A stretch of DNA of 64,000 nt from Thermococcus sp. (GTDB lineage: Archaea; Methanobacteriota_B; Thermococci; Thermococcales; Thermococcaceae), in assembly GCF_026988555.1 (NCBI RefSeq), contig NZ_JALSLB010000062.1:1-64000 (forward strand), given 5' to 3'. The notes below the pieces were generated by a model. That model worked only from the letters and a program-made list of their open reading frames with translations. It searched no databases and was not told where the DNA came from. The translations under genes and the position numbers were made by a program. Position 1 is the stretch's first letter, and each line of letters opens with the position of its first letter. Below, one piece after another: positions 57,060-62,053 of the stretch.

Positions 57060-57885
57060 GGGATTTCGCGAGTATCTTAATTTTTCCCACCCTTTCATCG
57101 CCGAAGCTCTCAACGTCGCCCGGCAAGACTGTCAGAACCCGCTCAAACCCGAGAGTCTTTGCCCTGCTGAAAACCGCCTTCAAGTCCCCAATCCTGCCCC
57201 AGAGAAGGAGTGCAGCGCCCTCCCTCCCGGGGAGACTCTTGAGGACATAGTACGAGCCGCCACTCCTGCCGGATTCGATCGTATAGTGAATCCCGGCGAT
57301 GTTGTCCTTAAAGGCCGAGAAGAACATGCTGTAGGAGCTCTGGAATCTGCCAGCAACCAAGTCAAGGTTTTTAACGTCCTTCCAGCCGAACGCCGAAGGC
57401 TCCACGGTTCCTCCGCCCCTCGCCGGAACCCATACGGTTGTCCCCGTGAAAAGCTCAGCGTCAAAGCCGAGCTTTCTGTAGAATCCCTCCGCATCCTCAT
57501 CCGGCTGGACGGTCAGCATCTCGACCTTCCGCTCCTTAGCGACCTCCCCAACGAACTCCATCAGAAGCCTTCCGATTTCCCTGCCCCTGTAGTCGGGGTG
57601 AACCTCGATAACGTCCACGTGCCCTATTTTCCTGAGCCTTCCACCAACGGGCTCCTCGGAGAACAGAACCTCGACCTCGCCAACTATAATACCTTTTAGC
57701 TCGGCAACGGCCACGAGCTGGTCATCAATGAGGAGGTTGTTCAGATGGATCGCGCAGGTCTCAACGTTCATCCAGGGACCGCCTCTGGTGTAGCGTTCGT
57801 AGAGGTTGCCGTTGAGTCTCTCGCCGGCCGTGTGGAGTGAAACTATCCCCTCGACGTCGTCAAGGGTTGCCAAACGGATCCGCAT
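57052..57885 (-). CDS. GNAT family acetyltransferase with extra C-terminal domain
   Basis: 277 residues. The first 150 form a GNAT domain: [42 protein letters not shown] (the acetyl-CoA loop RGREIG), and [14 protein letters not shown]. The rest (160-277) is a second region with [17 protein letters not shown] and [23 protein letters not shown] that has a GNAT-like layout but no clear motif. Acceptor unknown. The ATG at 57885 follows GGGTGAAG and overlaps the phosphatase gene by 26 nt, so it is co-transcribed. Confidence 0.88.
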
Positions 57886-58594
57886 CGTCTTCACCCAGGT
57901 AGCCGAACTTCCTCAGCACGTGGAGGATTCCCTCCGCTCCGCCCTGACCATAGGTCTTTTCCGTCACGTAGTCGGCTTCTTTTTTCAGGCTCTCCGGCGC
58001 CTGGCCAACGGCGACGCGGTAGCCGACTACTCTGAATGCATCGAGGTCGTTCTCGCCGTCACCTATGTGGGCAACCTCTCCCGGCTCTATCCCGAGCACC
58101 TCGCAGGCCTTCTTTATCCCCGTCCCCTTGTTTATCCAGGGCTTCTTGACGTGTATCGCGAAGCCGGAATCAACGGCGACGAGGTTAAGACCGAGCTCCT
58201 CTATTATGTCCCTCACGGCTTCAACAGGAATTGTGCGCAAAATCACCAGCCCTGCCTTCCTCTCAGGCATCGAGAAGCTGAGCACCGCCTCTGGGTAGCG
58301 CCTCTTCACCTCACTCCAGAGAATCCACTCCTCGTCCATCTTCGTCAGATAAGCCCTCCTCCTCAGCCGGCCGTCCTTAACCGAGAGCGCCCCGCCGTCT
58401 TCACCAACCACGGGGCCACTTGTACCGATGAGGATGGTGGCGGCCTCTCCGAACTGGAGGGTGTTCCCTGTTACCAGCATTACCGGAACCCCGAGGCCCT
58501 CCGCCAGCCTTATGGCTTCTAGTGCCTTCTTGTGGAGCCTCCTATCCGGATAAGTTATTGTGCCATCTATATCAACTGAGATAGCCTTTACCAT
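57860..58594 (-). CDS. pgp: Phosphoglycolate phosphatase (archaeal HAD family)
   Basis: 244 residues of HAD subfamily IIB with motif [13 protein letters not shown], motif [10 protein letters not shown], motif [16 protein letters not shown] and motif [18 protein letters not shown]. The archaeal family (TA0175-type) removes phosphate from 2-phosphoglycolate; some members act on sugar phosphates. A cap domain lies between motif I and III (about 85-150). It is the first gene of the pgp-GNAT pair. Confidence 0.94.
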
Positions 58595-58666: not shown

Positions 58667-59917
58667 TCAATGATCCTTCATTATCTCCCTGAGCACGCTG
58701 GTCGCATAAACACCTTTCGGAAGGAAAAACCTGAAGCACATTCCAGTTCCGGGGATGTGGCCGTAGGTGAGGCCAAGGGGCCTAATCAAAAGCTCCCTTC
58801 TTCCTCCGGGCTCGGCCATCGGTTTCGGAAGCTTTCTGAAGACTTCGAGGGATATCCCTTCCGCCTCAAGTATCTCCTCTTCCAGCCTCCCAGGAAGCCC
58901 CTTAGCACGCCTCATGGCAAAGCCAAAGAGCGGGCCACTGACTGCAGCCTCGCCGCGTTGTATCTTCCTGTTTACAAAATCCCTGTTGGTCTCGGTCACT
59001 CGGTAGGTTCTGTCGCGGTAGGGGATTCCTCCCTTCACCTGGACGACGATATCGCCGACGAGGGCCTCGTTCAGGGGAATACCTCTTTCAATCCTCCGGG
59101 AGATGTAGAGGTTGAAGAGGTAGCTCTGGTAGGCATGGATGAAGATGCGCATTATGGGAAGTGGAAGGCTTAGAAAAGCCCTCTTCCAGCTCCCGGTCTC
59201 CTTGTAGCGGTAGAGGAGTGTCCTTTCATAGCGCAGGAAGTTCGGAAATTCCTCCAGAGCTTTCTCAACATCGCCAGTCTCCCAGAAGTGTCTTCTGGCC
59301 TCGTCCCCTTCCATACCCCCTTCGTGCGCTCCGAGGAAGAGCCTCGCGGCACCCTCGAAGTCCCCCTGCAGGAGGAGCTTTCCGATCAGGTGGTTCGTGA
59401 CACGTTTCTCCCCGAAACGCTGGTAGCCAAAGTAGTTGGGAAAGCCACCCTTTCTCTTCAGTTCCCTCACTATCTCTCTGGTTCTCTCAAAGGCATCATC
59501 ACCAACGCCACGGACGATTATCCTGAAGCGGTTTCCAGTGAGGTGGCCGAGCTTGATAAACCTACCGTAGGAAACGAAGCGGAGCTCAACGTCCCTGATC
59601 CGAACGGTTTTGACCTTTTCCTTGGCCTTAGCAGGAACGCTGATGTACTGATACGTCACCGCGTGCCGGTCCTTCGTCCCGGCGAAGCCCACGTCCCTGT
59701 AGCTAATCCCGGCCCGCTTGGCTATCTCCTTGACGGCGCTCATGGTGTCCCAGTTTCGCTTTTTGAGTAGGAAGATGGTGTGCTTCCTGCCCTCAAATAT
59801 CTGGGGCAGGGGGTCTTCGATGACGACGAAGTCCTCAGGAAAAACCTTTATCCTGCCCCCAATGCCGGGTTCTTTGCTCAGATACCTGAACCGGGAAAAA
59901 AACTCGCGGTAGTCCAT
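58667..59917 (-). CDS. truD: tRNA pseudouridine synthase TruD
   Basis: 416 residues. TruD makes pseudouridine 13 in tRNA. The catalytic segment is [18 protein letters not shown] with the key aspartate; others are [46 protein letters not shown] and [16 protein letters not shown]. The TRUD insertion domain covers about 165-320. The ATG at 59917 follows GGTGATTGAG, preferred over a start at 59926. Only 9 nt separate it from the TOPRIM gene upstream. Confidence 0.96.
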
Positions 59918-59926
59918 CTCAATCAC

Positions 59927-60427
59927 CTAAAATCTCCAAAATTCGCGAAAGGATTTGCAATTCCGTTTGAGCTTCTCAAAGTCGAGCTTGTCAGCATACT
60001 TTGGAAGATTGGATTTGGTGTAACGCTCTCTCTTTTTCAGTTCATCGGAAGGTTTGGTACTCCAACTGTAGCCGAGGCTTTTGCATATCCATTCTTCAAT
60101 CTCGTACTCAAAGATGAAAATCTTAACCGGAACCTCCGTTTTTTTAGGGACATGTTTCGCAATGTCCCGTTTACGTGACCCATAATTTGCAGGACCATCC
60201 CCATCGTAAACAATAAGTATGAATTCAGGGAAAGCAATCTCAGCAGCCTTGATAATTTTGGTTAACTTAGGATTGCAGAGATAAGGAGCATGAATCAGAT
60301 TCCTTCTTCCAGAAAGCTTCTTGAGTTTGATGTTAGCAAGCCCCTCATGGTTCAATCTGCCCAAGAGACGTTTGAAGAACTCTCCCCCGTAGGTATCCTC
60401 AGTAATGATGACTATCTCTTTTGCCAT
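59927..60427 (-). CDS. TOPRIM-like protein, partner of the AAA15 ATPase
   Basis: 166 residues. The TOPRIM pattern is visible: a first strand KEIVIITEDTYGGEFFKRLL with the conserved glutamate, and LIVYDGDGPANYG giving the DxD pair. A later EYEIEEWICKSLG block fits the DUF4276/RloB/DUF4435 kind of TOPRIM protein. It would act as a nuclease paired with the ATPase gene just upstream, whose stop lies within the start region (TGATG). The ATG at 60427 is chosen; 60433 and a GTG at 60436 are alternatives. More AT-rich than neighbours, suggesting transfer. Confidence 0.82.
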   Translation of the reverse strand: MAKEIVIITEDTYGGEFFKRLLGRLNHEGLANIKLKKLSGRRNLIHAPYLCNPKLTKIIKAAEIAFPEFILIVYDGDGPANYGSRKRDIAKHVPKKTEVPVKIFIFEYEIEEWICKSLGYSWSTKPSDELKKRERYTKSNLPKYADKLDFEKLKRNCKSFREFWRF

Positions 60428-60432
60428 GCCCA

Positions 60433-61650
60433 TCACTGCTTTTTGTTCTCAAAGAGTGAACCGTAAAGCCATCCCTCACTGAGGGTGATGCCCCTCTCAT
60501 TAAGGAACTCTTTGATTTTTTCGGGATCTTTTATTCTTTTGAAGACAGTCTCACCATTCTCCTTATCGACGAGCACAAGGTCAGAAGGCTCAACGATATC
60601 AACGACAACCGGGGAGTGGGTCGTAATAATAACCTGGCTCTCGCTTTCCTTGAGTGTGTCTATTACCAGTTCAAGGGTTTCGGGATGTAAGGAATTCTCA
60701 ATTTCGTCAATTATCAGGAGAGGAGGTTTGAGATAAACTGCAGTAAGGATTGCAAGAACCTTATAGAAACCGTCAGAGATGCCTGGCGGAGCAAGTTCAA
60801 GATCGTTCTCAAAGACTTTCATCATGACCCTTCCATCCTCAGTGAGCTGGAAGAATATTCTTGTGTTGGGGAAGGCTATGAAGAGAGGCTCAGCTATTTC
60901 CTCCGGCAATCTGCCTTCGCGGAGCCAGATGTTATAGAGGAGCGGAATGAGGTTTGAAGCGTCTTCGTTGAGGGTTGTTTCCTTGCGGGGATATTGTGGC
61001 GTTTTGAGAGCCCTAATAAAAATTTGCCTTAGTATTAATTGTTTCTTTAAAAATTCAAGGTATGCACTTTTTATTGACTTCCAATTGGCGATATCTCCTA
61101 AAAGAACCGGTCGCATAGAAGTATAATCCATAAGAATTTCGAATAAGGATGCATCTTCCAAGTCTTTTGGTAACTTTTCTCGTATGATTCCTAGATTTAA
61201 ATCTGAGAACTCTGAAATCGTAGGGTACTCTAAACCCGAAAAAGCCATTTTTAGCCACTCTTTATCATGAACAACCTTTAGAAGATGGCCCTCCTTCTCG
61301 ATCCTTACGTAACCAGAAACCTCAATAACCTCCTTCAAAATCTCAAAACTTCCCCCAGTTCCAGTAAAAGTCGTTTCAAAATAAACATCATAACCATCAA
61401 CGTCGAAAAGCATCCCCACGATTATCGGTAACTCCTCTTTTCCGGCCCAAACGACATTATTGTAACCCCACCATTCAAGGAATGGATTTGTGTCTTTTTC
61501 AACATAGATTTTCCTAAGAAGCTTGAAGACCTCCACAAGATTTGTCTTGCCCGAGGCGTTGGGACCAATGATAACGTTGAACTTATCCAGCTCTACCTCG
61601 CAGTTCCTGAGACTCTTGAAGTTTCTAACAGTGAGCTTCTTCAGCCTCAC
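60433..61650 (-). CDS. AAA15/OLD-like SMC-family ATPase
   Basis: 405 residues from a GTG at 61650, after GGTGAG. Walker A is VIIGPNASGKTNLVEVF after a RecF-like start KLTVRNFKSLRNCEVELDKF; the signature region is APPGISDGFYKVLAIL; Walker B is LLIIDEIENSLHPETLEL; and the switch is IITTHSPVVVDI. This is the AAA15/OLD/RloA type. The helical middle (140-290) lacks a zinc hook. Coupled to the TOPRIM gene, it makes a two-gene ATPase/nuclease cassette like the split OLD or PARIS arrangement. Noticeably AT-rich. Confidence 0.9.
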   Translation of the reverse strand: MRLKKLTVRNFKSLRNCEVELDKFNVIIGPNASGKTNLVEVFKLLRKIYVEKDTNPFLEWWGYNNVVWAGKEELPIIVGMLFDVDGYDVYFETTFTGTGGSFEILKEVIEVSGYVRIEKEGHLLKVVHDKEWLKMAFSGLEYPTISEFSDLNLGIIREKLPKDLEDASLFEILMDYTSMRPVLLGDIANWKSIKSAYLEFLKKQLILRQIFIRALKTPQYPRKETTLNEDASNLIPLLYNIWLREGRLPEEIAEPLFIAFPNTRIFFQLTEDGRVMMKVFENDLELAPPGISDGFYKVLAILTAVYLKPPLLIIDEIENSLHPETLELVIDTLKESESQVIITTHSPVVVDIVEPSDLVLVDKENGETVFKRIKDPEKIKEFLNERGITLSEGWLYGSLFENKKQ

Positions 61651-61696
61651 GCTCTCACCGAAGATTAAAACGGCTAAATGATTAAAAGACTTCCGC

Positions 61697-62053
61697 TCAC
61701 ACCAGCTTCAAATGGCCGGTAACCTTGTCAACGAGCTCCTCGGGCCCGGGGCCGATTGCCAGAACCGTTAGTGTCCCCGGAGGAATCTCGGTTAAGCCGG
61801 CATCTCTGATGAGCGCCGTTGGGATGCCCAGCTTTTCAGCCTGGGCCTTCAGCTCGAAGAGCTCCTCCTCGTTTTCGGCCTTGACGACGACCTTCTTCTG
61901 CCCCTCATGGAACCAGGCCTTGAACCACTCGGGCTTCTCTTTCTGGGCCTTGAGGGCGGCGGTAACGGCCCCGTGGGCCACCTGGACGGCAAACTTGCCC
62001 TTGCTGAGCTTGAGGTCGTTCCGTGTGACCATAACCTGTTTGTACCTAAACAT
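61697..62053 (-). CDS. pth2: Peptidyl-tRNA hydrolase, archaeal type (Pth2)
   Basis: 118 residues of Pth2, which releases peptides from prematurely dropped tRNAs. Motifs are [68 protein letters not shown] and VLAIGPGP. Length matches the family. The ATG at 62053 fits family alignments. It is a separate gene between the ATPase and the large surface protein, with 58 nt between its stop's neighbour and the surface gene's stop side. Confidence 0.96.

Follow-up and report, generated by a model that had tools for sequence, protein, structure and literature searches.

The association of an ABC ATPase with a TOPRIM protein is a known feature of several defence systems, including PARIS, AbiL, MADS, Gabija and retrons (PMC12409363, PMC11455837). 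In PARIS, a hexamer of the ATPase AriA holds the nuclease AriB until a viral trigger frees it, and AriB then cuts tRNA-Lys (PMC11455837, PMC12409363). Cran1, an archaeal ATPase of the OLD family, has a cell-cycle role and apparently none in defence (PMC12796447). How an ABC-ATPase/TOPRIM defence system detects infection has been worked out in only a few bacterial cases.

In the 64,000-nt stretch of Thermococcus DNA analysed here (the window), an ABC ATPase gene and a gene for a small predicted TOPRIM nuclease form a two-gene unit between pth2 and truD. An earlier note on this DNA had proposed that the pair is a split OLD/PARIS-like defence cassette, or a DNA repair pair, recently inserted between housekeeping genes. 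The features of the locus are as follows.

61697-62053, minus strand: pth2 (peptidyl-tRNA hydrolase), left flank (PF01981, E 2e-45)
61651-61696, minus strand: 46 nt separating pth2 from the cassette, containing an AT-rich box (CTTTTAAT) and then GGTGAGAG ahead of the start; similar in the occupied pth2-truD sites
60433-61650, minus strand: AAA_21/OLD-type ABC ATPase of 405 aa, from GTG at 61650 to a stop codon at 60433-60435; proposed as sensor and scaffold
61297-61650, minus strand: N-terminal ABC half with Walker A (aa 1-118), conserved by protein identity and dN/dS
61042-61296, minus strand: central segment (about aa 119-203), hypervariable by identity comparisons; proposed exchangeable sensor
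60436-61041, minus strand: C-terminal ABC half (aa 204-405) with signature, Walker B, D-loop and H-switch, conserved by identity and dN/dS
59927-60436, minus strand: small predicted TOPRIM nuclease, 169 aa, start at GTG 60436 or, likelier, ATG 60427; proposed effector
59938-59941, minus strand: run of four T (five in relatives), a 1-nt deletion seen in alignments of the proteins and of the downstream junctions
58667-59926, minus strand: truD (tRNA pseudouridine synthase D), right flank (PF01142, E 1e-131)

The two genes and their nearest described kin

Much of what the earlier note had described at the level of the two genes was confirmed. The ATPase open reading frame is present, and its Walker A (GPNASGKT, aa 29-36), Walker B (LLIIDEIE) and H-switch (TTHSP) are intact as judged by eye, together with a D-loop (NSLHP) and an ABC-signature-like motif (ISDGFYK). 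The ATPase stop does overlap the start region of the small gene, by 4 nt if the latter starts at GTG 60436, and the pair is AT-richer than its neighbours truD and pth2, with a GC content of 0.37-0.46 versus 0.51-0.60 in most intervals either side. Since homologues without the GTG codon (in G036 and G011) start at the position of ATG 60427, this is probably the true start rather than GTG 60436. The 46-nt stretch upstream of the ATPase gene is probably the cassette's own promoter and ribosome-binding site.

The ATPase covered the full AAA_21 profile of Pfam (104.2 bits, E 1.8e-29; cut-off 27 bits). It also matched AAA_15 (81.4 bits, E 1.3e-22) and, weakly, DUF2813 (4e-6), both of which the earlier note had suggested as checks, and its two halves showed sequence similarity to RecF, Rad50 and SMC. 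The best matches among the PADLOC profiles were defence ATPases, i.e., HEC-01A (6.3e-37), mad3 (5e-31), AriA (1e-29) and AbiLi (8e-27), which speaks for reading the pair as a defence system. The structure model of the ATPase was poor (pLDDT 45) and unusable for the fold of the central segment.

The small protein had no Pfam match on its own. Across 15 homologues, the two families that the earlier note had named as candidates fared differently: DUF4276 matched 11, weakly (best E 0.0024), and DUF4435 matched none at E values up to 5. None of the 15 reached the curated cut-off of DUF4276 (PF14103; 30.2 bits), and at E<=0.01 this profile had no match in the family genomes, the control genomes being equally silent. 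Matches to the PADLOC profiles mad4 (best 8e-5) and HEC-01B (best 1.4e-4; 9e-4 for the window protein) were each found for 10 of the 15, the mad4 alignment covering residues 4-117 of the window's protein; an AbiLii match was not found with the PADLOC profiles in the window protein or its homologues. Comparison by hhalign of the small family with two plasmid-encoded DUF4276-type proteins was weak (probability 32%).

A canonical TOPRIM fold has the order b-a-b-a-b-a-b-a, with a glutamate after strand 1 and a DxD motif after strand 3. The AF2 model of the small protein, made with the family alignment (pLDDT 87), has this order (b1-a1-b2-a2-b3-a3-b4-a4) and these positions, with E13 after b1, D78xD80 after b3 and E112/E114/E115 after b4. 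Because E13, D14, E19, D78, D80, E112, E114 and E115 are invariant in the 15 homologues (62-95% identity), the TOPRIM-like pattern goes beyond chance. A fold search of the PDB with the model returned only generic matches and nothing at E<=0.001, hence no significant match to a solved TOPRIM protein, so the fold is predicted rather than matched. The small protein is thus a predicted TOPRIM nuclease. The TOPRIM-like E and DxD motifs reported in the earlier note are present, and the structure prediction that it had recommended supports the fold on which its reading depended.

Like PARIS, which consists of AriA and AriB, the cassette is a split pair of ABC ATPase and TOPRIM genes. The PARIS rule combines AAA_15 at >32 bits or AAA_21 at >27 bits with an adjacent DUF4435 protein at >=27 bits (PMC9122126); the ATPase passes on both profiles, but the partner fails, as DUF4435 is absent from all 15 small proteins. 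Membership of PARIS was therefore rejected, and the part of the earlier proposal that stands is the broader one, a split OLD/PARIS-like defence cassette, which on homology is the best-supported reading. Activation by an anti-restriction protein and cleavage of tRNA are further marks of PARIS.

By profile similarity, the nearest kin are AAA_21-DUF4276-type pairs, i.e., PADLOC HEC-01 and mad3/mad4 of MADS. HEC-01 is an Hma-embedded candidate whose HEC-01A is the best profile for the ATPase, with weak similarity of its partner HEC-01B to the small protein; unlike HEC-01, the cassette is archaeal, has no Hma genes around it and lies at fixed housekeeping junctions (pth2/truD). Both mad3 and mad4 of MADS match their counterparts, but no methyltransferase or other MADS genes adjoin the cassette, and the NCBIfam MAD3 score of the ATPase is 100.9 bits versus a cut-off of 420. 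The likeness to AbiL is confined to AbiLi and the ATPase. OLD nucleases and GajA of Gabija likewise combine an OLD/Rad50-like ABC ATPase with a TOPRIM domain; in class 1 OLD and GajA, however, the two are not split, whereas here the TOPRIM is on a separate open reading frame and that of the ATPase ends after the second ABC half. A GajB-like helicase, as in Gabija, does not adjoin the cassette. No defence island surrounds the pair, its surroundings being housekeeping genes, and this counts against the defence reading.

Distribution, transfer and decay of the cassette

Of the 94 Thermococcaceae genomes, 20 (about a fifth) have the small gene and 18 have an ATPase orthologue, which in each case adjoins the small gene. 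The cassette was not found outside Thermococcaceae within the phylum searched, and a scan of named genomes for the small protein gave matches in Thermococcus/Thermococci only. A virus- or plasmid-borne origin was rejected, as the phage, plasmid and IMG/VR collections yielded no homologue of the small protein; this absence also counts against the defence reading.

The cassette occupies precisely the same point between pth2 and truD in 17 genomes, and the carS/GTPase site in 3. Fifteen of the occupied pth2-truD sites, the window's included, are complete, with 1773-1943 nt between pth2 and truD, and two are cut by contig ends, the cassette adjoining pth2 in G060 and truD in G063. Each of pth2 and truD was found in 91 of the 94 genomes. 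In 69 genomes the junction is empty, with the two genes within 100 nt of each other; the pth2 stop is 3 nt from the truD ATG in the 19 empty examples listed. The comparison among relatives called for in the earlier note thus revealed a patchy presence (17 occupied versus 69 empty junctions). Conservation of both genes as core genes at this site in all Thermococcales, which that note had named as evidence against its reading, was rejected on the basis of the empty junctions and the small number of carriers.

The products of pth2 and truD have tRNA or peptidyl-tRNA as substrates, and tRNA is also what AriB of PARIS cuts (PMC12409363), so that the cassette might be imagined as a regulatory module linked to tRNA that works together with these two neighbours. 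We give this explanation almost no credence, because pth2 and truD are intact without the cassette in the 69 genomes, and in two genomes of another genus (G011 and G010) the pair lies instead between carS and the GTPase gene.

At the carS/GTPase site of G005, a 37-residue remnant of the nuclease C-terminus is present and nothing more, and the copy in G010 (L129:3-840) has a TAA stop in the small gene and DG in place of DE in Walker B (IIDGIEN). Given its presence in 20 of 94 genomes, its two sites, this remnant and this stop-bearing copy, the cassette belongs to the accessory genome, occupies fixed junctions and disappears through decay.

Between G001, which belongs to a different genus, and G042 the cassettes were 88% identical, and between G001 and G030 84%, with only 70-71% identity in truD plus pth2. 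Conversely, the G042 cassette was about 71% identical to those of several members of its own genus, with flanks at about 86%. Because cassette identity is above that of the flanks in the first case and below it in the second, these values fit horizontal transfer of the cassette into the same junction, across genera. Strict vertical inheritance is disfavoured by the same identities, although a formal AU test, run on one grouping, fell short of being decisive (p 0.09). The cassette itself includes no recombinase gene, and the route of transfer may be homologous recombination in the flanks. Accordingly, the earlier idea of a cassette inserted between housekeeping genes is supported as regards a mobile, accessory insertion, but a recent arrival in this genome is not supported: the junction carries the cassette in 17 genomes from two genera, which indicates a long history with transfers and losses.

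The pth2-truD junction of G005 (L164:801-2150) holds another gene, on the opposite strand, for an archaeal ATPase_2/DUF234 protein of 449 aa, and the junction may therefore take various inserted genes. Three genomes (G028, G069 and G024; L165, L166 and L167) have truD upstream of pth2 on the same strand, with a gene for a HAD-like phosphatase between the two in G028 that resembles, by eye, the window's 57860-58594; this order is a local rearrangement of the housekeeping cluster.

The hypervariable central segment of the ATPase

We aligned 17 ATPases and divided them into an N part (aa 1-118), a central segment (about aa 119-203) and a C part (from aa 204). Pairwise protein identity was 78-97% in the N part (mean 86%), 67-98% in the C part (mean 80%) and 73-97% in the two together, with a median dN/dS of 0.05 and 0.07 in N and C, respectively. 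For the central segment it was mostly 10-60%, with a mean of 26%, a median of 20% and a range of 10-100%. The segments fall into at least four families: seven genomes have A, three B, six (the window's among them) C and one D. When profiles were compared, A and B were related over their length (E 2.5e-8), and C was related to A, more distantly, over 94 columns (6.9e-5); C matched B over the first 50 columns only, some of which belong to the conserved boundary. The segments may thus be versions of one very fast-evolving domain and not unrelated inserts. No Pfam match above cut-off was found for the segment in four representatives, and a sequence search of the PDB with families A and C gave no match.

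When the family labels were placed on the tree of the N and C parts, 8 changes were needed versus a mean of 8.5 for shuffled labels, so that the families are essentially random with respect to that tree. Pairs of genomes illustrate this: G042 and G030 are 89% identical in N plus C and 11% in the central segment, and G037 and the window's genome (G000) are 91% and 26% identical, respectively. The opposite was observed for the DNA of G000 and G071, which is 100% identical in the central segment versus 93% in N, 88% in C, 86% in truD and 91% in pth2. Among four close family-A genomes, dS was 0.04-0.15 in the central segment versus 0.11-0.54 in N and C, and dN/dS was 0.23-1.15 versus 0.06-0.14, the individual central-segment ratios being rough because the counts are small; the raised dN/dS could reflect diversifying or relaxed selection. 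As the window's genome has no full-length AAA_21 paralogue, a Rad50-like protein served as the control for hypervariability, and its mid region was 85% identical between G042 and G030 and 92% between G037 and G071, for which the central segments are 11% and 22% identical. A search with the G071 allele found no donor copies of the segment elsewhere in the genomes. On these comparisons, the ATPase is a mosaic, in which the central segment has been exchanged between species and the rest conserved, a feature that the earlier note does not mention.

A housekeeping or DNA-repair role, i.e., a RecF/Rad50-like ATPase with a TOPRIM nuclease, would suit the similarity of the ATPase to RecF and Rad50 and has a precedent in Cran1, an archaeal OLD-family ATPase outside defence (PMC12796447). 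The cassette, however, is absent from about four fifths of the family genomes, has been transferred and has decayed, and carries a hypervariable centre; the repair pair that the earlier note had offered as its alternative is, in our opinion, very unlikely. A selfish toxin-antitoxin addiction module, in which the nuclease is neutralised by the ATPase and post-segregational killing maintains the pair, would account for two tightly linked genes that are mobile across genera and use fixed sites, and Pfam labels AAA_21 as a putative AbiEii toxin of a type IV toxin-antitoxin system. We consider this distinctly improbable, since it leaves the hypervariable, exchanged segment of the ATPase unexplained, and since PARIS with either gene deleted is non-toxic (PMC9122126).

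Proposed mechanism and the state of the window copy

Rapid divergence together with exchange on a conserved chassis is a mark of recognition modules, and it is from this evolutionary pattern that we infer a swappable sensor in the central segment, within a PARIS-like system of sensor and TOPRIM effector. The presence of at least four central-domain families on near-identical ABC halves points to this segment as the part that senses the trigger. Comparable cases would be the domains that set specificity in type I restriction systems and the regions that vary in NLR immune receptors. A hypervariable domain exchanged in this way was not found described among the papers searched, which came largely from outside subscription journals. 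We lean, by a modest degree, toward an allelic recognition domain swapped by recombination, such that Thermococcales would have in common a set of sensor modules, all fitting one ABC-ATPase/TOPRIM defence chassis that returns to the same junction.

The cassette as a whole is probably a two-gene antiviral abortive-infection module, with the ATPase as its sensor and the TOPRIM protein as its effector. In this model, the ABC ATPase would be both sensor and scaffold and would hold the small nuclease inactive in a complex; by analogy with PARIS, the conserved ABC halves would be the engine that holds the effector, and the trigger would be recognised by the variable segment. Binding of a trigger from a virus or plasmid by the central domain would change the shape of the ATPase and free or activate the nuclease, which would then cut RNA (probably tRNA, like AriB) or DNA and so stop the cell. 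Host lineages would alter the trigger recognised by recombining new central domains between the conserved ABC halves, and whole cassettes would be gained and lost at fixed chromosomal junctions. If this is true, hyperthermophilic archaea have an innate defence of the abortive type, and recombination drives the evolution of its specificity.

The same pair could act without suicide, as a restriction system against plasmids or other foreign DNA, if the ATPase sensed DNA ends or structure in the manner of Rad50/SMC and the TOPRIM protein cut DNA. The resemblance of the ATPase halves to Rad50, SMC and RecF would agree with this, as would the DNA cleavage by some TOPRIM-linked ABC ATPases (GajA; PMC8136825). 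Among the plasmid matches of the ATPase, the one listed first is a gene of the cyanobacterium Anabaena with a DNA methyltransferase ahead of it and a DUF4276 gene after it; the pairing with DUF4276 speaks for the antiviral module, and the methyltransferase for restriction. In the window, however, neither a methyltransferase nor a helicase adjoins the cassette, and an exchanged hypervariable domain suits recognition of varied proteins better than that of DNA ends. We therefore regard restriction as unlikely and retain the abortive-infection module as the preferred explanation.

The window's own copy has two apparent lesions. Its ATPase lacks, in frame, 144 nt (48 aa) relative to G071, the closest full-length relative, with the junction at 61059/61060, inside the central segment; this deletion plausibly damages sensing, and with part of the central domain missing the window copy may be impaired. 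The 1-nt deletion at 59938-59941 turns the conserved FREFLEILGD into FREFWRF at the end of the small protein and moves its stop; it is predicted to affect the C-terminal tail only. Both lesions could be real or could be errors of the source assembly, which consists of 68 contigs.

A separate observation concerns the Rad50-like protein. The version in the window's genome (contig C42, L180:211-2880) is 59-66% identical to those of the carriers G037, G071, G060 and G072 and about 35-42% identical to those of the remaining genomes, some of which have similar housekeeping genes. The genus seems to have two divergent versions of Rad50, one taking the place of the other.
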